From positions 1 through 64,000 of the forward strand of contig JARVKA010000003.1 in NCBI GenBank assembly GCA_029775915.1: a DNA stretch of 64,000 nt, in the 5' to 3' direction. Below the pieces are notes generated by a model. It had not been told where the DNA came from, did not search any database, and was given only the letters and a program-made list of their open reading frames with translations. The stretch is from Nitrososphaeria archaeon. Lineage in GTDB: Archaea; Thermoproteota; Nitrososphaeria; Nitrososphaerales; JANXEG01. Shown here piece by piece: positions 40,957 to 52,438 of the stretch. Position numbers and translations under genes: made by a program. How positions within the stretch are numbered: position 1 is the stretch's first letter; every line of letters starts with the position of its first letter.

Positions 40957-42101
40957 GACCTGCAGGTTTAAGCTTGAACCCGAAGAAGAGCAAGCGACCA
41001 TTCTTGAGGATCTTTTCAAGACCTACTCAGAGATGGTTAAAGCATGTTTGGATATGGCTATGCATTTAAACGTAACCTCACGTAAGAGGCTTCATGAAGC
41101 AATTTATAAGGAGCTGAGGATGAAATATCTAACTATCTATCTCATTATATCTATACGGCTATAACACAGGCTCTAAGTATATTCAAATCTTACAGGAGGC
41201 TCTCTAGGAAGAATAGGAAAATTAATCCTCCAAGGATTGAAAAGCTAAGCACTATCCTCTTGGACGATACCCATCTATTCTGGTTCAGTTGGGGAAGTAT
41301 AAAGCTGGCTACGCATAAAGGGCATATTACGATTCCATTCAAGGTTCATGAGCATTCAAGGAAGTTCATGTATTGGCAGGTTAAAGGCTCAAGGCTTGTG
41401 AAATTTAATAATGAATACCATCTTCATGTTACTTTTAGAAAGACGGTTGAAGAGAAAAAGGCTGAAGGCATACTAGGTATCGATGTTAACGAGAGTAGCA
41501 TAGACCTAGCTGTTGTGAAGCCAAACAAGGTTAAGTTCATCAAGATAGATATAAGCGAGGCGAAATACATTAGAGACAGATACTTCAGGAAGAGGAGGAG
41601 TATTCAGAGTAAGACTTCAGGGAAAACAAAAGCTGAGCTGTTAGCAAAGTATTCTGGAAGGAAAAGCGGAGGATAAACGACATACTCCATAGAGCAACGA
41701 AGATTATAGCTGGCATAATCGCCGAAGAAAACGTTAAACCGATAATGGAGAAACTCACCTACATTAGGGAAAGAATACAGTATGGTAGGAAGATGAATAG
41801 AAGGCTCCACAACCTGCCATTCAGAAAAATTCAGTCTTACATTTCCTATAAGTCGATGGAGCTAGGCTTTACTCCTGAAATGGTTGACGCTAAGAACACT
41901 TCCAGGACATGCCCGATGTGTGGCGAAATTAATAAGCCGAATGGGCATGTCTCCAAGTGTAGAAAATGCGGCTTCCAAACGGATAGGCACTTAGTTGCAG
42001 CTTGGAACATAGCTACAAGACTCCCCATGTGCCGTCCTCTACCGTTGGCGGCGAAGGCCCTCAATGAATCCCTAGAAATAGAGGTGAGGGGGAAGGGATG
42101 A
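40925..42101 (+). pseudogene. tnpB: TnpB RNA-guided nuclease, two frameshifts
   Basis: CRFKLEPEEEQ..., LGIDVNESSIDLAVV, MEKLTYIRERI, SRTCPMCGEINKPNGHVSKCRKCGFQTDRHLVAAWNIA; frame changes near 41128 and 41665. Confidence 0.88.
42058..42090 (+). ncRNA. Possible omega-RNA 3' hairpin overlapping the tnpB 3' end
   Basis: CCCTCA(42058-42063)/TGAGGG(42085-42090) enclosing CCCTA-GAAA-TAGAGG; position matches known TnpB guide RNAs. Structure inferred by eye. Confidence 0.35.
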
Positions 42102-42462: not shown

Positions 42463-43500
42463 ATGATGCCACCCTACCTTGTATCATACGCTATTACAAA
42501 GGAATGTAACCTTAAGTGCAAGCATTGCTATAGTGATGCTACAGATAAACCTGCACTTAACGAATTATCTACTTCGGAAGCGAAGAAGCTCTTAGATGAT
42601 ATTGCAAATTGGGGTATAAAGCTCCTCATTATGGATGGTGGTGAGCCTCTTTGTAGAGATGATTTTTATGAAATCGTTAATTATGCATCAAATAAAGGGA
42701 TTAGAGTTGTAGTTGGTAGTAATGGTACACTTATTAATAAACAAAGTGCTATTAAAATGAAGGAGGCTGGTGTACAATGTGTAGCTATATCTATAGATGG
42801 AGCTAAGCCTGAGACTCATGATTCATTTCGAGGAGAGAATGGAGCATTTTATAAAGCTATGGAAGGAGCTAAGATTTGTAAAGAGATAGGTTTACCTTTT
42901 CAATTCAATATGGTAATTAGAAAGCAAACCCTTAATGAAATTCCGGATATGTTAAAGTTGGCTATTGAAAGTGGTGCGAATGCTGCAGAGTTTTTCGATC
43001 TTGTAGAAGTTCAAAGGGTTAAAGAGAGATGTTATAAGGAGATTTTGAGTAAAAATGAGAGAAAAGAGATTATGGAGTGGTTGGCTGAAGCTCAAAAAGA
43101 TTGCCCCATACTAATTAGAGTACCTGCATGCCCCATGTATCCATTAATTCTTAAAGAGAAGAATATTCAACCAAAACATTTCTCAGCCAATTTATTAAAA
43201 ACCATACCATATTACAATCGTGGTTGTGCTGCTGGAATGCCCAATGGTTATATTACAATATTGCCGAATGGTGATGTTATACCATGTATGCTACTTCAAA
43301 TAAAAATCGGTAATGTAAGAGAAAAGAGTATTATTAAGATTTGGGAAGAATCACCAGTATTGGCAAAGCTTAGATCGAGAGATTTAGAGGGTGAGTGTGG
43401 TAAATGCTCTTATAAAGATATTTGCGCTGGATGTAGAGGAAGAGCTTATGAAGTAACGGGTAATATAATGGCTAGTGATCCAGGTTGTTGGTTTATTTAA
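42463..43500 (+). CDS. Radical SAM/SPASM domain protein
   Basis: TKECNLKCKHCYSDA CxxxCxxC; C-terminal CGKCSYKDICAGCRGRAYEVTGNIMASDPGCW SPASM-like cysteines. Confidence 0.88.
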   Translation: MMPPYLVSYAITKECNLKCKHCYSDATDKPALNELSTSEAKKLLDDIANWGIKLLIMDGGEPLCRDDFYEIVNYASNKGIRVVVGSNGTLINKQSAIKMKEAGVQCVAISIDGAKPETHDSFRGENGAFYKAMEGAKICKEIGLPFQFNMVIRKQTLNEIPDMLKLAIESGANAAEFFDLVEVQRVKERCYKEILSKNERKEIMEWLAEAQKDCPILIRVPACPMYPLILKEKNIQPKHFSANLLKTIPYYNRGCAAGMPNGYITILPNGDVIPCMLLQIKIGNVREKSIIKIWEESPVLAKLRSRDLEGECGKCSYKDICAGCRGRAYEVTGNIMASDPGCWFI

Positions 43501-44861
43501 ATAAAGAGAGATTGTGTGATTGTAAATTGGTTTACACATTGATAATAAAAAATTGTAAGATACCTTTATTCAATGATATTATTGAAGGTGATTTATTAAT
43601 CGATAATGGTAAAATCGCTGGATTTAGTAAAAGTGGTTTAGCAAGAGCTGACAATTATTACGATGCTAAAGGGCTTTTAGCTTTACCTGGCGGTATTGAT
43701 GCACATGTTCATTTCAGAGACCCGAGCTCAAATAAAGCTGAAGATTTTGAAAGTGGTAGTTTAGCAGCAGCTCATGGCGGTATTACTACGGTAGCTGACA
43801 TGCCAAATACAGAACCACCTGTAACAAATATTGAGGCTTTAAGATTAAAATTAGAGCGAATAAAAGGTAGATCTTATGTTGATTATATGCTTTATGGAGG
43901 GGTTGGTAAAACGACTTTAAAAAATATTGAAAGTTTAGCGAAAGAAGGTGTTGCAGGGATAAAAACATTTATGATTAGCAGATTTCCAGCATTATTATCA
44001 CCAGATAATGAAACGATTAAAGCTGCGATTTTAGAGGCTAAAAAAGCAAATATACCTTTATTAATTCATGCTGAAGATTTAACTGTAGCTAATAACTCAA
44101 TTAATGAAGAAGTAAAATCATATGCGATTAAAAGAGGTTGTTTATGTGAGAGTTTAGCGGTAGCTAGAGTAGCTGAGTTAAATAAACAACTTAAAGGTTA
44201 TGTGCATTTTGTTCATATAAGTTGTGCAAATAGTTTACAATTAATTCACTTTTATAAAAGTTTGAATACTCAAATCACAATTGAGACAGCACCCCATTAT
44301 TTATCATTAACTATGGATGACCTTGAGAAAAAAGGTCCTTATGCAAAAGTAGATCCTCCATTAAGAATGAAAAGGGATGTTGAGGAGTTGTTGAATGGAT
44401 TGCGTAATGGTGATATAGATTTTATTGCTAGTGATCATGCGCCTTATACAAAAGAAGAAAAGGATATAGGGTTTAAGGATATCGAACTCGCTCCATCTGG
44501 CATGCCGGGTGTAGAAACGACTTTACCATTTCTTTTAAACCTTTTTAATAAAGGTTTATTAAGCTTAAATAGATTAATTGAGGTATTCTCAACAAATCCA
44601 GCGAAATTTTTAGGCATTTATTCAAGAAAAGGAGTTTTGAGATTAGGCTCAGATGCAGATTTGGTTTTAATAAATCTTAAGCAAGAGTTTAAAGTTTCAA
44701 GTGAGAATTTACTTACAAAAACGAAGCAATCCATATTTGAAGGTATGAGTTTTATTGGTAAACCAATAGCAACATTCTTGAGAGGTGTTTTGATAATGGA
44801 GAATATGGAGATTCGCTCAAAGCCTATAGGCTCATTTATAAAGCGAAGTTCCAATATTTAA
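43485..44861 (+). CDS. pyrC: Dihydroorotase (start uncertain)
   Basis: LPGGIDAHVHFRDPSSNKAEDFESGSLAAAHGGITTVADMPNT, LLIHAED, ASDHAPYTKEEK. Confidence 0.88.
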   Translation: MLVYLNKERLCDCKLVYTLIIKNCKIPLFNDIIEGDLLIDNGKIAGFSKSGLARADNYYDAKGLLALPGGIDAHVHFRDPSSNKAEDFESGSLAAAHGGITTVADMPNTEPPVTNIEALRLKLERIKGRSYVDYMLYGGVGKTTLKNIESLAKEGVAGIKTFMISRFPALLSPDNETIKAAILEAKKANIPLLIHAEDLTVANNSINEEVKSYAIKRGCLCESLAVARVAELNKQLKGYVHFVHISCANSLQLIHFYKSLNTQITIETAPHYLSLTMDDLEKKGPYAKVDPPLRMKRDVEELLNGLRNGDIDFIASDHAPYTKEEKDIGFKDIELAPSGMPGVETTLPFLLNLFNKGLLSLNRLIEVFSTNPAKFLGIYSRKGVLRLGSDADLVLINLKQEFKVSSENLLTKTKQSIFEGMSFIGKPIATFLRGVLIMENMEIRSKPIGSFIKRSSNI

Positions 44862-44983
44862 TAAATTTCTGAAATAATTTTAAAACAAAATCTTGTTTAT
44901 ATTTTTAATATTTTTAGTAATACTAAGTAAACTAAGTAAGAAATCTTTATAAATTTCTCTGACATAGGTAAGAAAGAGCATAT

Positions 44984-46306
44984 ATGGGAGAGAAAGTTGC
45001 AAGACGTGATTGGATAAAAGTTGCTGGTGCTGGTATAGTAGGTTTGGCGATAGGTGCTGGTGCTACATATGGCTTAATGCCTCCTCGTGTGGAGCGTATT
45101 GAAGTTAAACCAACTCCAAAGCCAATACCAAAAGAGCCATTAAGATTAGGTGTTGTGACATTCTTAAGTGGGATACCTGCACCTTCTGGTATCGCTGGTT
45201 TAAGAGCAGCAGAAATATGGGTTGATTGGACTAATGCTGCGGGAGGCATATTAGGTAGGAAAGTCGAATTATTGGTAGAGGATGAGAGTGAAGGTGTGGA
45301 AAAGAGTGTAGAAAGATTTAAAAAATTAACTGTAGAGAAAGGATGTGAAGCTATTTTTGGGACAGAATCGACATCAACTGGATTAGCATTTGGTAAGTTA
45401 GCGGAGGAGATGCAACAACTTTGGTTATCTTGGGATGGTACTACTCAACAAGGTCTTGAAGAAACGATACCAAATAAAAAATTTAGTTTTCCAAGTATTT
45501 ATAATGAGGCTGAGGCGGTAGCGGGTGCTGTATTGGTAGCTAAGTACTTTCCAAATGTCAAGACTGTAGCTGGGATTAATGATGATTATTCATATGGAAG
45601 AAATTGTTGGGAAGCTTTTATGAGTGTGTTAAAAACATTACGCCCAGAGGTAGTACCAGTAAAAGAGTTGTGGCCAAAGTTAGGAGAATCTGATTTTACC
45701 TCACATATAGCTGCACTTGATGCTGCTAAACCAGACTTAATAATGAGTAGCTTTTGGGCAGGGCATGCGACTATATTCCTTAAGCAAGCGGCGGCTGTAG
45801 GTTTATTCAAAAAGTATAAAGGAGCGATGGTAACTGCAGGTGGTGTGTTACCTACATTAAAGAAAGAGTTTGTACCTGAGGGTGTATTAATTGGTTGTAA
45901 CAGTTGGTATTTTGAACATCCTCTTGGATGGCCATTGCGTGATAAGTTTGTTAAAGAATATTTAAGGAGATACGGAGAATATCCAGTTTATGAGTGTGAT
46001 CATGCATTCTTTACATTCCAAGCTTATAAAGCAGCGGTAGAAAAAGCTTACGCATTGAAAGGAGAATGGCCTACTAAGGAAGAAATCGCTAACCAACTTC
46101 GAGGGATAAAAGTACCATCACTCTCTGGTTATAGAGGATATAGAGAGGATAATTATCAAATTTGTAATTTCTTCCTAGGACTTAGTAAGCATGATCCACG
46201 CTACGACTTCGTTACATTAGATCCATTAGATATGGTGCCATTCGAACTTATGTGCCACCCACCAGAAATGAAGTTCCATGACTGGGTTAAAACATGGAAG
46301 TCATGA
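44984..46306 (+). CDS. Branched-chain amino acid-type ABC substrate-binding protein (Tat-like signal)
   Basis: VARRDWIKVAGAGIVGLAIGAGA twin-arginine-like N-terminus; type I periplasmic-binding (LivK-like) fold. Confidence 0.85.
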   Translation: MGEKVARRDWIKVAGAGIVGLAIGAGATYGLMPPRVERIEVKPTPKPIPKEPLRLGVVTFLSGIPAPSGIAGLRAAEIWVDWTNAAGGILGRKVELLVEDESEGVEKSVERFKKLTVEKGCEAIFGTESTSTGLAFGKLAEEMQQLWLSWDGTTQQGLEETIPNKKFSFPSIYNEAEAVAGAVLVAKYFPNVKTVAGINDDYSYGRNCWEAFMSVLKTLRPEVVPVKELWPKLGESDFTSHIAALDAAKPDLIMSSFWAGHATIFLKQAAAVGLFKKYKGAMVTAGGVLPTLKKEFVPEGVLIGCNSWYFEHPLGWPLRDKFVKEYLRRYGEYPVYECDHAFFTFQAYKAAVEKAYALKGEWPTKEEIANQLRGIKVPSLSGYRGYREDNYQICNFFLGLSKHDPRYDFVTLDPLDMVPFELMCHPPEMKFHDWVKTWKS

Positions 46307-46365
46307 ATTCGTGTAAGTTACATATATCCCCCTCCATTTTATTTTTTGTCGTGAGGTTATGCTAA

Positions 46366-47259
46366 TTGTTTACACTAGATGCCATAATAGGGATTTTATT
46401 TAATGGAATATTTTATGGGTCAATACTCTTCTTGATTGCCGCTGGTCTTCAGCTAATATTTGGAGTGCAAAGAATATTGAATTTAGCATGTGGTAGTTTT
46501 TATGCACTTGGAGTATATACTGGAGTTACATTTATTGAATTCTTTATGGGAATTGGATTACCCCATATATACTTCATAATAGCTTTAATTATTGCTGGCT
46601 TAATATTAGGGTTTATAGGACCAATTATTGAGAGAGGAATATTGAAACCCATATATGCAAGAGAGATGGAGTTTCAATTACTTGCAACATTTGCACTCGT
46701 ATTAATATTTGAAGATGTTATAAGATTTGTATGGGGAATATATCCAAAAATATCAAAGGTTAGTCCAGTTATTTATGGAGAATTGAGAATAGGGGCTACG
46801 ATACTCCCTATTTATTACATATTCGTAATAGTAATAAGCCTTACGATAGCGCTATTTATGGGATTTATGATTAAAAAGACAAAACTTGGGAAAACATTAA
46901 GAGCTATTTCAGACAATAGAGAGATGAGTGCAGCATTAGGTGTAAATGTGAATAAATTTTACCTATTAAGTTTTACAATAGGCACTATAATGGGAACGAT
47001 TGGAGGTAGTTTAATGGCTCCAGTGACTGCTGCATGGTTAGGATTAGGTGTAGAGATAATAGTTTATGCGTTTGCAGTTGTAGTTATAGGAGGATTAGGG
47101 AGTATGATAGGTGCATTTATAGGAGCGATGATAGTTGGTGTATTTAAAGGATTGGCTATAGCGATATATCCAGAGTTGGAGGTGCTCATAATATACGCAG
47201 TGGTAATCGCTATATTAATTATGAAACCATCGGGTCTCTTTGGGAGGATTGAAGAATGA
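46366..47259 (+). CDS. livH: Branched-chain amino acid-type ABC permease LivH
   Basis: GLQLIFGVQRILNLACGSFYALGVY, VVIGGLGSMIGAFIGAMIVG. Confidence 0.9.
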   Translation: MFTLDAIIGILFNGIFYGSILFLIAAGLQLIFGVQRILNLACGSFYALGVYTGVTFIEFFMGIGLPHIYFIIALIIAGLILGFIGPIIERGILKPIYAREMEFQLLATFALVLIFEDVIRFVWGIYPKISKVSPVIYGELRIGATILPIYYIFVIVISLTIALFMGFMIKKTKLGKTLRAISDNREMSAALGVNVNKFYLLSFTIGTIMGTIGGSLMAPVTAAWLGLGVEIIVYAFAVVVIGGLGSMIGAFIGAMIVGVFKGLAIAIYPELEVLIIYAVVIAILIMKPSGLFGRIEE

Positions 47260-48284
47260 AAATCGATATTATTAAGGAAGTAAGTACGATTATACCATTT
47301 AAAAATACACGTTTCACATCAATTTTAATAATCTTATTTATTATTGCTCTTATCGCACCTTATGTAGCGCCTCCTTTCCTCACATACATTTTATTAACGT
47401 TCTTTTGCTACGTACCTATCGTAATTGGTTTTAACCTCTTACTTGGATATACTGGGCTCTTATCCTTCGGTCATGGACTTTTTGTAGCAATTGGCATGTA
47501 TACTTCTGTATATTTAATGAGAAATTATGGTGTTACTTCTATTGAGATAATGCTTATACTCGCTGCTACACTATCTGCATTGGCTGGATTTGGTGTAGGC
47601 TTATTGTGTATTCGATATGTAAGGATATTCTTTGCTATGTTAACACTCGCTTTTAGTATGGTATTCTACTCATTCTTGCTGAAGTTTTATTGGCTAACTG
47701 GTGGAGATGAAGGCTTAGGCATATATACAAGACCAGCATTACTCGGTATGAAATTCGATACATTGTACATCATGGATTTCCTTACAAAGGTTTATTACTA
47801 TTATGTTCTAGCCATTATGGTTATTCTTCTAATCTTTATGTATAGAATTACTACATCACATTTTGGTATTTGTTTAAGAGCTGTAAAAGAAAATCCGAGA
47901 AAGGCTGACGAGTCGGGATTAAATGTTAAGAAATATAGGTTATATGCCTTTGTAATTTCAGCCATATACACTGGAATAGGTGGAGCTTTATTGGTTCAAG
48001 TCACACGCCATGTAGTACCAGCAATAACGTATTGGACGTATTCTGGCGAAATAGTATTTATGACACTATTAGGTGGTTTCAATTATTTTACAGGGCCAAT
48101 TATTGGAGCATTCGTTTACATAGTCTTAAGAGATTTAATTATGTCACTTACGATATATTGGAGAGTAATATTAGGTGTAGCATTACTTCTAATCGTTATA
48201 TTTGTCCCTGGAGGATTGATGGGAGGGGCTAAATCTTTATCCAAACTTATTATTAAAAAGCGTGAGAGTTATGAGTTTAGCTGA
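47256..48284 (+). CDS. livM: Branched-chain amino acid-type ABC permease LivM
   Basis: NLLLGYTGLLSFGHGLFVAIGMYTSV; ENPRKADESGLNVKKYRLYAFVISA. Confidence 0.9.
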   Translation: MKIDIIKEVSTIIPFKNTRFTSILIILFIIALIAPYVAPPFLTYILLTFFCYVPIVIGFNLLLGYTGLLSFGHGLFVAIGMYTSVYLMRNYGVTSIEIMLILAATLSALAGFGVGLLCIRYVRIFFAMLTLAFSMVFYSFLLKFYWLTGGDEGLGIYTRPALLGMKFDTLYIMDFLTKVYYYYVLAIMVILLIFMYRITTSHFGICLRAVKENPRKADESGLNVKKYRLYAFVISAIYTGIGGALLVQVTRHVVPAITYWTYSGEIVFMTLLGGFNYFTGPIIGAFVYIVLRDLIMSLTIYWRVILGVALLLIVIFVPGGLMGGAKSLSKLIIKKRESYEFS

Positions 48285-49023
48285 ATTACAGAATGTTAAA
48301 AAATATTTTGGGGATGTACATGCTGTAGATGATGTTTCATTAAAAATAAATGAAAATGAACAAATCTCTTTAATTGGTCCTAATGGTGCTGGAAAGACTA
48401 CATTAATTAATATATTTGCTGGAACGATTAAGCTGAATAGTGGAAAGATTATATTTATGGGCAAAGATATAACTCACTTACCCCCATATAAAAGGTGTGA
48501 ATTAGGATTAGCGAGAAGCTTTCAATTACCAGCCATTTATCCAAATCTTACTGTTTATGATTCCGTTCGTGCATCAATTATTTCTAAGCTTAAAAAAGGT
48601 AAGCGATTTTATTCATCAGTAGACTTGGACGATGAAGTAAATAAAATGACTAAAGAGGTTCTTGAGTTATTTGAATTGTACAATAAAAGAGATATGTTAG
48701 CAATAAAGTTGCCACATGGTGATAAAAAGTTATTAGATGTTGCTTGTGCTTTTGCTTTATGGCCTAAATTAATATTGTTAGATGAGCCAACAAGTGGTGT
48801 TAGTACCATAGAAAAGCGAAAGGTTATGGAGAAAATATTATCTGTATCAAAGGAGATGGGTATTAAGTCATTCATAATTGTAGAGCATGATATGGATATT
48901 GTCTTTTCTTATTCCAATAGAATAATTGTAATGTATGAAGGTAAGGTGCTAGCGGATGGTAAACCTGAAAAAATTAAGGAGAATGCGGAAGTAGTACGCA
49001 TATTACTTGGGAAGGTGAAATAG
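48262..49023 (+). CDS. livG: ABC ATPase LivG
   Basis: GPNGAGKTTLINIFAGTI, LARSFQLPAIYPNLTVYDSVRA, LLDEPTSGV. Confidence 0.9.
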   Translation: MRVMSLAELQNVKKYFGDVHAVDDVSLKINENEQISLIGPNGAGKTTLINIFAGTIKLNSGKIIFMGKDITHLPPYKRCELGLARSFQLPAIYPNLTVYDSVRASIISKLKKGKRFYSSVDLDDEVNKMTKEVLELFELYNKRDMLAIKLPHGDKKLLDVACAFALWPKLILLDEPTSGVSTIEKRKVMEKILSVSKEMGIKSFIIVEHDMDIVFSYSNRIIVMYEGKVLADGKPEKIKENAEVVRILLGKVK

Positions 49024-49024
49024 T

Positions 49025-49723
49025 TTGCTTGAGGTAAAGGATTTAAATGTATTCATAAGTGAAAGCCATATACTTAGAGATATTAACCTTAATGTTAAAG
49101 AAGGAGAGTTCGTGACTATTGTTGGAAGAAATGGTGCTGGTAAGTCTACACTTTTAAAAACTATTATGGGTATAATTAAGCCTAAATCTGGTAAAATCTA
49201 TTTCTTAGGCAAGGATATAACTGGCTATCCACCTCACAAAATTGCAAATATGGGCGTAGGTTACTCACCAGATGACCTTAAAATATTTCCCAGCCTCACC
49301 GTGGAAGAGAATATAGAATTATCAATTTTAACTACTAAAGGGAATAAACAAGAAATATTTGAGCTTGTTTACAGTATATTCCCAAAATTGAAAAGGTATC
49401 GTAAAAAATCAGGGATACACATAAGTGGAGGAGAAAGGAGGATGCTCGCTATAGCTAGAGCTTTAGCATTAAACCCAAAGTTGCTTTTATTAGACGAACC
49501 TTTTGAAGGATTAGCACCAATTGTAATTCCTGAATTAGTCAAAAGTATACATGAGTTAGTAAATAGAGGTTTAACATTAATACTTACCGAACCTAATATT
49601 TTTCGCATACCAGAATTTGCAAGTAGGGTTTACGTAATTGAGAGGGGAGAAGTAATATATAGTGGAGAGGTTAGCGAAATGCATAAAAATGAAAAAGTTA
49701 AAGGATTAATAGGTGTGATTTAA
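49025..49723 (+). CDS. livF: ABC ATPase LivF
   Basis: GRNGAGKSTLLKTIMGIIKPKSG, ISGGERRMLAIARALALNPKLLLLDEPFEGLAP. Confidence 0.9.
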   Translation: MLEVKDLNVFISESHILRDINLNVKEGEFVTIVGRNGAGKSTLLKTIMGIIKPKSGKIYFLGKDITGYPPHKIANMGVGYSPDDLKIFPSLTVEENIELSILTTKGNKQEIFELVYSIFPKLKRYRKKSGIHISGGERRMLAIARALALNPKLLLLDEPFEGLAPIVIPELVKSIHELVNRGLTLILTEPNIFRIPEFASRVYVIERGEVIYSGEVSEMHKNEKVKGLIGVI

Positions 49724-49725
49724 AT

Positions 49726-50376
49726 ATGAGTGAAGATTTATTAAATGAAATCTCAACATCAGTGGCTGAGTGTAGAGAAGTATCTTATACACTTCAACTT
49801 GTGCAAAAAGCGATAGAGAGCAATATAGACCCATTAAAGATTATGGATGCTGTAAGAAAAGGATTGGATGTAGTGGGCGAAAAGTATGAAAAAATGGAAT
49901 ACTTTTTAATGGATTTGGTACTGGCTGGTACAACTGCTAGTGAAGTATTGAGGTTAATAAAGCCATTATTAATGAAAGCAACAAGTAAGCCGAAAGGTAA
50001 GGTAGTTATAGGTACTGTAGCTGGTGATATGCACGATATTGGAAAGAATCTTGTTATTGCTATGTTATCATCAGCTGGTTATGAAGTAATAGATTTGGGA
50101 ATAGATGTACCAGCAAGGAAATTTGTTGAAGCAGTTATAAATGAGAGACCAGATATAGTTGCGATGTCTGCATTACTTACTATAACTCTTGATGAGCAAA
50201 GAAAAACGATAGAAGCATTAAAAAATGCTGGATTAAGGGATAAGGTAAAAATAATGGTTGGTGGCAGACCAGTTACTCCTGAATTTGCGAGAGAGATAGG
50301 TGCGGATGGTTATGGTAAAGATGCAGTAGAAGCTGTTAAAATAGCGGATATGCTATTAGGATACAAAGTGAGTTAA
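49726..50376 (+). CDS. Corrinoid protein (B12-binding, MtaC/MtbC/MttC-like)
   Basis: GDMHDIGKN (DxHxxG), SALLTITL, MVGGRPVTPEFAREIGADGYGKDA. Confidence 0.92.
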   Translation: MSEDLLNEISTSVAECREVSYTLQLVQKAIESNIDPLKIMDAVRKGLDVVGEKYEKMEYFLMDLVLAGTTASEVLRLIKPLLMKATSKPKGKVVIGTVAGDMHDIGKNLVIAMLSSAGYEVIDLGIDVPARKFVEAVINERPDIVAMSALLTITLDEQRKTIEALKNAGLRDKVKIMVGGRPVTPEFAREIGADGYGKDAVEAVKIADMLLGYKVS

Positions 50377-50378
50377 TA

Positions 50379-51488
50379 ATGAATGGTAGAGAGAGGATTT
50401 TAAAAACTTTAGATCATGAAGAGCCAGATATGGTACCGATTACTGAGATATTAATAGAAACAGTGCATAAAGAAGCTTTACTTGGTAAGAAGATAATACA
50501 AGAACCGAATGAAGTAGTAAAAATGGGTTATGAGAATAATGTAAGGCATTATTTAGAGCTTAATGTTGAATTTTATAGCAAAGTTGGTTTTGATGCTATA
50601 CCTTATGTACCTACTGGTGGTATGTTTAAGGGTGAGAAGTATAGGTTAATGCCCGATGGTACAGTAGCTGATCAATGGGGCGCAATATGGGGTTATAATA
50701 TTTACGCAAATGAGTTAGTATATTTACGTGGAGGGGCTAACGGAACAACTATAGAAGAGTTTGAAGAGAATTTTCCAGAAGTTCCAAAAACTTTAGTAGG
50801 TTTAGAATACTTAGTAAAGTTAGCACATAAAAAAGGTATGGCAGTATATCTTGAAGTAGATACGCCCTTTGTGACCGCTTGGTACAGTATTGGTATAAAT
50901 GCATTCTTTAAAGAGTTAAGAGAGAGGCCAAAAACAGTAAAAAGATTAGTATCGAGAATTACGAGTTTTGTTTGTGAGGAGATTAAAATAGCAGCAGATC
51001 TTGGTGTTGATTTTATATTAAGTTCTGGTGATTTTGCTGAGAAGAATGGACCGTTTATGAAATTATATTATTACGATGATATAATTTGGCCAAATTTAAA
51101 GAGAGAGGTAGAGACTGCACATAGTAAAGGTTTGAAGTATATTAAGCATAGCGATGGAAATATAAATAAATTGTTACCGAAATTAAGTGAAATTGTTGAT
51201 GGTATACACTCTATAGAGCCACCAGCAGGAATGAATATTTGTGAGGTAAAGGAGAAGTATGGTGATAAACTTGTATTAATAGGCAATATTGATACTAGCC
51301 ATACTTTACCGAGAGGGACGAAAGAGGAAGTGATAGAGGAGGTTAAACGAGTGATTAAATGTGCAGCACCTGGTGGTGGTTATATATTATCATCAAGTAA
51401 TACATGGGTAGCTGATGCTAAGTTGGAAAATTGCTTAGCGATGGTGGAAGCTGCAAGAAAGTATGGTAAGTATCCAATAAGATTATAA
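50379..51488 (+). CDS. Uroporphyrinogen decarboxylase (URO-D)-fold methyltransferase
   Basis: UroD/MtaA superfamily: RILKTLDHEEPDMVPI, YIKHSDGNINKLLPKL, GGGYILSSSNTW; next to the corrinoid protein. Confidence 0.85.
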   Translation: MNGRERILKTLDHEEPDMVPITEILIETVHKEALLGKKIIQEPNEVVKMGYENNVRHYLELNVEFYSKVGFDAIPYVPTGGMFKGEKYRLMPDGTVADQWGAIWGYNIYANELVYLRGGANGTTIEEFEENFPEVPKTLVGLEYLVKLAHKKGMAVYLEVDTPFVTAWYSIGINAFFKELRERPKTVKRLVSRITSFVCEEIKIAADLGVDFILSSGDFAEKNGPFMKLYYYDDIIWPNLKREVETAHSKGLKYIKHSDGNINKLLPKLSEIVDGIHSIEPPAGMNICEVKEKYGDKLVLIGNIDTSHTLPRGTKEEVIEEVKRVIKCAAPGGGYILSSSNTWVADAKLENCLAMVEAARKYGKYPIRL

Positions 51489-51510
51489 GCCCTTTAAAAT
51501 CATTATTTCG

Positions 51511-51658
51511 AGCTTTGTGGCTTATTTTTTAACTTTTAAATCCTTATATATCTCCTTAAAATAATTTCCTTAAAATAATTATAAGAATTAACCATAAAAT
51601 GTTAGAAAAATTAAATTTTAATCACAAAATACGAAATTCGAAATTAAGCCACAAAGCT
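51511..51658. repeat. 14-bp perfect inverted repeat flanking ~120 bp AT-rich DNA between convergent genes
   Basis: AGCTTTGTGGCTTA at 51511-51524; TAAGCCACAAAGCT at 51645-51658. Confidence 0.85.
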
Positions 51659-51673
51659 ATTATTTGAGCTTAA

Positions 51674-52438
51674 TTAAAACAATGGTTCACAAAATATTCC
51701 TCGATCTTTAAATGTATTTATTAACTCAATCTTTTTCTTCTCAAAAAACTCATTACTCATAGAATGCTTTAATCCATACTTTTCATAAACCCAATCTGCA
51801 TAATGGTAATTCATTTTATCAATCATTACATAATCAGTCTTTCCAACTAGCTTTTCAACAAGATCTTCAGCCTTTGGTAATAAAGGAGCGATCATCACAT
51901 AAGTCTTAATACCAGCTGAATGCAATTTACTCAAAGTATTTATCCTATCTTTAATTGATGGTGCTTTTGGTTCAAAAATATCTTTAATTCTCTCATCACC
52001 AGTCGTTATTGTAAGAATTATTTCAATATTTTTATAATTTCGTAAAAGCTCTATATCACGCAATACAAGTGTTGATTTCGTTTGTATTACAATAGGCCAA
52101 CCTTTCTTTATCAAAATTTCAAGACAACTTTTAGTAATTTTAAATCTTTCCTCTAAAGGTTGATAAGGATCACATAAACTACTTATCCAAACCTTACCAA
52201 ATTTTTTCCTTTTTAATTCACGTTGAAGTAATGTTGCAGCATTAATCTTTATATCAACAAACTCGCCCCATTTTTCTTTATGATTGGTAAATCTTTTAAT
52301 ATAACGAGCATAACAATAAGTGCATCCATGTTCACAACCAATGTAAGGGTTTATAGTGTAATCAAAAACCTTAGATTTTGATAAAATGCTCTTTGCGTAA
52401 ATTTCTTTAATGATCATGGCTCTTTGTAATTTAATCAT
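51674..52438 (-). CDS. SplB-like radical SAM protein (COG1533-like)
   Basis: NPYIGCEHGCTYCYARYIKRF (CxxxCxxC), VWISSLCDPYQPLEERFKITKSCLEIL. Confidence 0.82.
   Translation of the reverse strand: MIKLQRAMIIKEIYAKSILSKSKVFDYTINPYIGCEHGCTYCYARYIKRFTNHKEKWGEFVDIKINAATLLQRELKRKKFGKVWISSLCDPYQPLEERFKITKSCLEILIKKGWPIVIQTKSTLVLRDIELLRNYKNIEIILTITTGDERIKDIFEPKAPSIKDRINTLSKLHSAGIKTYVMIAPLLPKAEDLVEKLVGKTDYVMIDKMNYHYADWVYEKYGLKHSMSNEFFEKKKIELINTFKDRGIFCEPLF

Follow-up and report, generated by a model that had tools for sequence, protein, structure and literature searches.

The window analyzed here, a 64,000-nt stretch of contig JARVKA010000003.1 from a Nitrososphaeria archaeon (GCA_029775915.1), carries a seven-gene operon in which a Liv-type ABC transporter is joined to a corrinoid protein and a UroD-fold protein. 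The operon probably encodes an importer together with the first half of a three-component corrinoid-dependent demethylase. In the proposed scheme, an exported solute-binding protein (SBP) would capture a methylated, probably methoxylated, carboxylate, LivHMGF would import it, and the UroD-fold protein, as substrate:corrinoid methyltransferase (MTI), would bind it and methylate the Co(I) centre of the corrinoid protein. The methyl group would then go via MtrH from the corrinoid to tetrahydromethanopterin (H4MPT), RACo/AcsV-type activases would re-reduce inactive corrinoid, and CH3-H4MPT would either enter carbon monoxide dehydrogenase/acetyl-CoA synthase (CODH/ACS) to give acetyl-CoA or be oxidized via Mer, Mtd and Mch. 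The parts of a three-component demethylase were found: a candidate UroD-fold MTI encoded 2 nt after a corrinoid gene, intact corrinoid motifs, MtrH and activases. We infer the methyl-transfer steps and the matching of the MTI to its partners from the observed gene order, spacing, protein families, corrinoid-UroD pairing, altered active-site triad and downstream components.

The host is a Nitrososphaeria-type archaeon that is not among the well-known ammonia oxidizers; H4MPT-dependent Wood-Ljungdahl genes are on record for non-ammonia-oxidizing Nitrososphaeria (PMC10833072). Its assembly (G000) comprises 1.47 Mb in 10 contigs and is 99% complete, and genome-wide searches were run on stretches holding 99.96% of its bases. 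Comparison genomes included one of the same genus (G001) and one of the same order in another family (G006).

The seven genes are co-directional, open reading frames (ORFs) and coordinates agreeing with the sequence-only reading that preceded this analysis (Table 1). A gap of 59 nt separates the SBP and LivH genes. From livH onward the tight packing described earlier was confirmed, with genes either overlapping (LivH/LivM by 4 nt, LivM/LivG by 23 nt) or 1 nt (LivG-LivF) to 2 nt (LivF-corrinoid, corrinoid-UroD) apart. A promoter of its own for the corrinoid gene is very unlikely because of the 2-nt gaps on either side; the earlier reading had named a separate corrinoid/UroD promoter as counter-evidence, and these genes lie 2 nt behind the transporter genes. 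A sigma-70 promoter scan was discarded, as its matches were at chance level and the model is not applicable to archaea. Family-level assignment was upheld for all seven proteins (Pfam and NCBIfam).

From the sequence alone, the UroD-fold protein (369 aa) had been taken for an MtaA/MtbA-like enzyme or, alternatively, for one acting on the substrate itself. Under the former view it would move the corrinoid-bound methyl group to a thiol such as coenzyme M, the substrate methyltransferase being another protein. Its best NCBIfam matches were to MtaA/CmuA-type models, and the nearest solved folds to its AlphaFold model (pLDDT 90.4, pTM 0.91) were MtaA, that of M. mazei being closest, and UroD (TM-score ~0.7-0.8, 13-18% identity). 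However, MtaA/MtbA family models scored it at 30-76 bits against cut-offs of 235-600, and the His-Cys-Cys zinc triad of M. mazei MtaA aligned to His257-Asp259-Asn341, with Asp and Asn in place of the Cys ligands. In addition, McrA was not found, leaving no known use for CH3-CoM, and an MtrH acceptor enzyme is present. Identity as a coenzyme M methyltransferase was rejected on the altered triad and sub-cut-off scores, and the acceptor role is highly improbable. The HemE model TIGR01464 did not match the protein at E<=0.001, and a uroporphyrinogen decarboxylase was likewise rejected, the UroD fold alone being common to both. A phmmer search against the PDB with this single protein as query returned one weak match, CdmB (~38 bits, C-terminal half only).

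The O-demethylases MtvB, OdmB, VdmB and MtoB, together with CdmB, are UroD-superfamily enzymes (PMC13222342), so an MTI can take the form of a UroD protein whose gene neighbours a corrinoid gene. McrA, MttB and MtaB gave no match in the genome, with controls matched (no search was made for MtmB, MtbB or bathyarchaeal MtgB), and the UroD proteins thus remain as MTI candidates. That of the window is probably the substrate:corrinoid methyltransferase, as the second of the two earlier suggestions allowed. The accompanying statement that no MttB-, MtaB- or MtvB-type enzyme was visible is correct genome-wide for the first two, but MtvB belongs to the UroD superfamily and its type had been overlooked. 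According to Kountz and Balskus (PMC10418091), S-methyltransferases of the superfamily keep His-Cys-Cys and O-methyltransferases swap one or both Cys for carboxylates or non-ligands. The His-Asp-Asn pattern recurred in 41 of 44 collected relatives and, by this rule, the clade should therefore act on an O-methyl rather than an S-methyl compound.

The scheme could also be right with an N-methyl or S-methyl substrate, such as betaine, sarcosine or a methylthio compound. The corrinoid protein scored highest with glycine-betaine MtgC (~198 bits) and methylamine corrinoid (~182 bits) models, under their cut-offs, and a UroD paralog on contig C6 lies near hydantoinase-type HyuA/HyuB genes. Betaine and amine demethylases, however, are of the MttB/MtmB/MtbB type, MttB was not found, and the triad change speaks against sulfur; we consider such a substrate possible, on balance unlikely. 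The choice among O-, N- and S-methyl is separate from how the parts cooperate, and the likelihoods given here to the rival explanations overlap.

In a tree of 48 proteins, which did not include MtoB, MtvB or OdmB sequences, the window UroD protein fell within an 11-member archaeal clade with support of 100. Eight of the 11 members have a corrinoid gene as immediate neighbour, compared with 4 of 33 relatives outside the clade, and corrinoid-UroD pairs are found again in genomes of Bathyarchaeota, Asgard and Nitrososphaeria. The other three members adjoin a transporter, either TctABC (the C6 paralog) or an SSF sodium symporter (L072, L219), and one member (L218) has a corrinoid gene and an SSF symporter both nearby. 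Three unrelated transporter families (Liv, Tct, SSF) thus adjoin one enzyme clade, which argues that its substrate or product crosses the membrane.

The remaining steps are encoded elsewhere in the genome (Table 1). The search for MtrH and a corrinoid reductive activase proposed earlier yielded one MtrH and two activases, and the suggestion that partners lie elsewhere holds for these components; a second substrate enzyme of the MttB/MtaB kind was not among them, the MttB search, also proposed earlier, having given no match. An alternative fate for the methyl group is methionine synthesis or general methyl recycling, in which the corrinoid protein would mainly serve a MetE-like protein (C6:54954-55928) and not MtrH and CODH/ACS. 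In its favour, the distance between the MetE-like gene and the UroD paralog on C6 is ~2 kb, and MetE neighbours a corrinoid gene in a Brockarchaeota relative. Since MtrH, Mer and CODH/ACS form a complete alternative and the window locus has no MetE gene, this route is considered rather improbable.

Table 1. Features of the operon and of the putative downstream pathway. Positions without prefix are those of the window; C2, C4, C5, C6, C9 and C10 are contigs of the window genome, the operon being on C4.
Feature	Position	Strand	Basis or context
TATA-like element CTTTATAAAT, candidate operon promoter	44938-44955 (box ~44943-44952)	+	by eye, 5' of SBP gene
SBP, twin-arginine signal, unlike canonical leucine binders	44984-46306	+	Peripla_BP_6 E=1e-46
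LivH-type permease	46366-47259	+	BPD_transp_2
LivM-type permease	47256-48284	+	BPD_transp_2
LivG-type ATPase	48262-49023	+	ABC_tran
LivF-type ATPase	49025-49723	+	ABC_tran
Methyltransferase corrinoid protein	49726-50376	+	B12-binding and B12-binding_2; DxHDIG...SxL...GG
UroD-fold protein, probable MTI	50379-51488	+	URO-D; His257-Asp259-Asn341
UroD paralog, 78% identical to window UroD	C6:58045-59148		39 nt from TctA, TctCBA-UroD operon
UroD with H-C-G triad	C2:68664-69758		directly before MtrH, near second Liv set
MtrH (MTII)	C2:69776-70684		331.6 bits, MtrH family cut-off 287
RACo/AcsV-type activase, AcsV-like	C10:31980-33884		above Pfam cut-off
RACo/AcsV-type activase	C4:194073-195971		above Pfam cut-off; inside CODH/ACS cluster
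CODH/ACS cluster with CdhA, CdhB, CdhC, CdhD, CdhE	C4:190966-200786
Mer and Mtd	C5:30751-32880
Mch	C9:25229

The Liv transporter might instead take up common branched-chain amino acids, or else urea or amides, and be a chance neighbour of the methyl-transfer pair, for which its annotation speaks. Against this, in the SBP, which carries a twin-arginine (ARRDW) signal, M/L stands in place of LivJ Glu226 and Asp in place of Ala100, in a distant alignment that leaves the placement of Glu226 uncertain by a few residues. In LivJ, Glu226 and related residues bind the alpha-ammonium group. The SBP thus departs from canonical LivJ; a clear amino-acid binder would have told against the earlier reading. 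Further Liv-type sets exist in the genome, and for many SBPs annotated as branched-chain binders, experiments showed the ligands to be aromatic or dicarboxylic acids (PMC3223731). Urea or branched-chain amino acid identity by NCBIfam model was rejected for the SBP, whose scores were far under the cut-offs, as was a UrtABCDE urea transporter (UrtA 64 bits vs. 493, UrtB 171 vs. 250, UrtE 226 vs. 286). The SBPs of tripartite tricarboxylate transporters mostly bind dicarboxylates, with some aromatic cases (PMC8556258). Because carboxylates are the ligand class common to both SBP types, a methoxylated carboxylate may tentatively be proposed as the best-guess substrate.

A neighbourhood survey had been proposed for conserved linkage, and it extended the linkage beyond a single genome. 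The closest relative of the SBP (63% identity) is in G006, where SBP-LivHMGF-UroD is divergent from UroD-corrinoid-(105-aa ORF)-RACo activase. A class-wide sample of 400 genomes gave strong Liv-type matches in four, close ones only in the window genome and G006; this Liv type is therefore rare and linked to UroD-corrinoid genes in both genomes that have it. The UroD-corrinoid pairs of G006 and the window are not orthologs, so the same importer type occurs with two different UroD lineages, in two families. Chance adjacency in G006 would be ~0.2% (two UroD-corrinoid pairs, ~2,000 genes), which is our rough estimate rather than a computed test. At SBP homologues of <=38% identity in other Thermoproteota, no UroD or corrinoid neighbours were seen among the matches listed. 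A luciferase-like protein beside UroD in G006 was considered as Mer and rejected.

The corrinoid protein has intact cobalamin motifs (GDxHDIG...SxL...GG) and is the only one of its type found in the window genome. In G001, contig C16 (L245:1-11612) is syntenic to window positions 44860-52438 with pyrC, corrinoid and radical SAM genes kept; the corrinoid gene (protein 84% identical) follows the end of pyrC after ~140 nt. A membrane-hydrogenase/antiporter-type cluster lies between the corrinoid and radical SAM genes, at the position of the window UroD gene, and the only UroD match in that genome is UroD3, adjoining MtrH and Liv2. The Liv and UroD genes would thus either have been added, in the window lineage, to a corrinoid gene already there or have been lost in G001. 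Such a gain or loss speaks for a chance join; given the altered SBP residues, the recurrence in G006 and the association of Liv, Tct and SSF transporters with the UroD clade, a chance join is nevertheless unlikely.

Since G001 keeps the corrinoid gene alone, the corrinoid protein does not need Liv or UroD, and the simplest reading makes it a hub for exchangeable importer-plus-UroD modules (C4 Liv, C6 Tct, C2 Liv2). The sequence-only claim that the SBP imports a methylated or methoxylated compound for demethylation inside the cell thus stands as regards uptake linked to corrinoid-dependent demethylation, but the corrinoid protein probably serves other modules as well instead of being dedicated to this transporter. 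A wider proposal, which we advance tentatively and at somewhat less than even likelihood, is that an undescribed archaeal clade of His-Asp-Asn UroD MTIs (Bathyarchaeia, Nitrososphaeria, Asgard) forms plug-in modules, each with its own importer (Liv ABC, TctABC or sodium symporter), around one shared corrinoid hub that feeds the Wood-Ljungdahl pathway, with a substrate new to corrinoid demethylases.

Several points weigh against the importer-plus-demethylase scheme. This Liv type occurs in two genomes of the class sample only; the G006 UroD protein beside the orthologous Liv genes falls outside the 11-member clade; and the G001 site lacks both Liv and this UroD with the corrinoid gene kept. The hub reading weakens the dedication of the corrinoid protein to one transporter. 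An AlphaFold model of the SBP pocket was discarded (pLDDT 35), so the ligand is not constrained by structure, and the search for other substrate methyltransferases had the scope given above.

Among known systems, the Mto O-demethylase (MtoA/B/C/D) of Methermicoccus shengliensis is alike in its UroD-type MTI, small corrinoid protein, MtrH-type MTII to H4MPT and 2Fe-2S activase of the ASKHA type (PMC8630106). It differs in that MtoB (47-48 kDa) is a different UroD protein from that of the window, in its major facilitator superfamily carrier, where a Liv ABC importer stands in the operon here, and in that the window genome is a non-methanogen with MTII and activase unlinked. The chloromethane dehalogenase Cdm (CdmB/C/A) of Acetobacterium shares a UroD-fold MTI and a corrinoid protein, but CdmB lacks a His where the triad has one, and its substrate is a gas needing no importer. 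MtaA and MtbA share the fold (TM-score 0.72-0.79 to 4AY7/4AY8), whereas the window protein has His-Asp-Asn for His-Cys-Cys and scores far under the family cut-offs. MtgABC of Bathyarchaeia, which acts in lignin O-demethylation, likewise links archaeal corrinoid demethylation to H4MPT and CODH/ACS; MtgB (~300 aa), however, is described as being without homology to known MT1s, unlike the UroD-type candidate here. Type 1 mlp gene clusters (Kountz and Balskus) of anaerobes combine UroD-superfamily methyltransferases with a corrinoid protein and activase, but their enzymes retain His-Cys-Cys, with methyl-sulfur or methyl-selenium compounds as assigned substrates. Within the known three-component type of corrinoid demethylase, the novelty would lie in the deviating triad of this UroD clade and in the placement of an ABC importer in the operon.

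If the scheme is true, corrinoid demethylation feeds carbon fixation in a non-ammonia-oxidizing Nitrososphaeria-type archaeon without McrA or MttB, and exchange of transporter-plus-enzyme modules on a single B12 protein may broaden the substrate range. UroD-type genes of unassigned function are often numerous in Bathyarchaeia and related archaea, and a quick first look at a Thermoproteota sample gave up to ~50 UroD candidates per genome. The locus ties one UroD clade to an importer, a corrinoid partner and the acetyl-CoA pathway, and so offers a testable route to substrates.

Other observations concern UroD genes and their surroundings. The C6 operon region (C6:58045-63734, L038:10046-15735) encodes, besides the UroD paralog and TctA, TctB and TctC, two further proteins, one of 214 aa that matched no family and a 4Fe-4S protein of 246 aa; a nicotinamidase-like gene lies near it, as do the HyuA/HyuB-like and MetE-like genes. 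In two distant archaea, His-Asp-Asn UroD/corrinoid pairs are accompanied by another UroD type, whose triad is His-Glu-Gly (L042:1963-3126, L218:10078-11151). At four loci of other Thermoproteota (L223, L224, L227, L231), UroD relatives lie near an aldehyde ferredoxin oxidoreductase-type gene, its family model checked on the L231 copy only, and a small ferredoxin-like gene; aldehyde substrates are possible there. UroD-like genes with an in-frame stop (TAG or TAA) were seen in three other Thermoproteota (G081:C5:1326-1907, G074:C2:32168-32749, G248:C9:31573-32328) and could be pseudogenes, read-through frame extensions or cases of recoding.

In the window, the operon is immediately preceded by a radical SAM/SPASM protein gene and a dihydroorotase-family gene that overlap (42463-44861). 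The former is AhbD/NirJ-like with scores below cut-offs, and the two genes are side by side in G001 too (L246). Farther upstream, consecutive ORFs (41260-41676 and 41745-42101) resemble halves of a broken IS200/IS605-type TnpB gene. Downstream, between the convergent UroD and radical SAM genes, a 25-nt inverted repeat (51511-51658, 84% complementary, arms 98 nt apart) may represent a terminator or what is left of a small mobile element.

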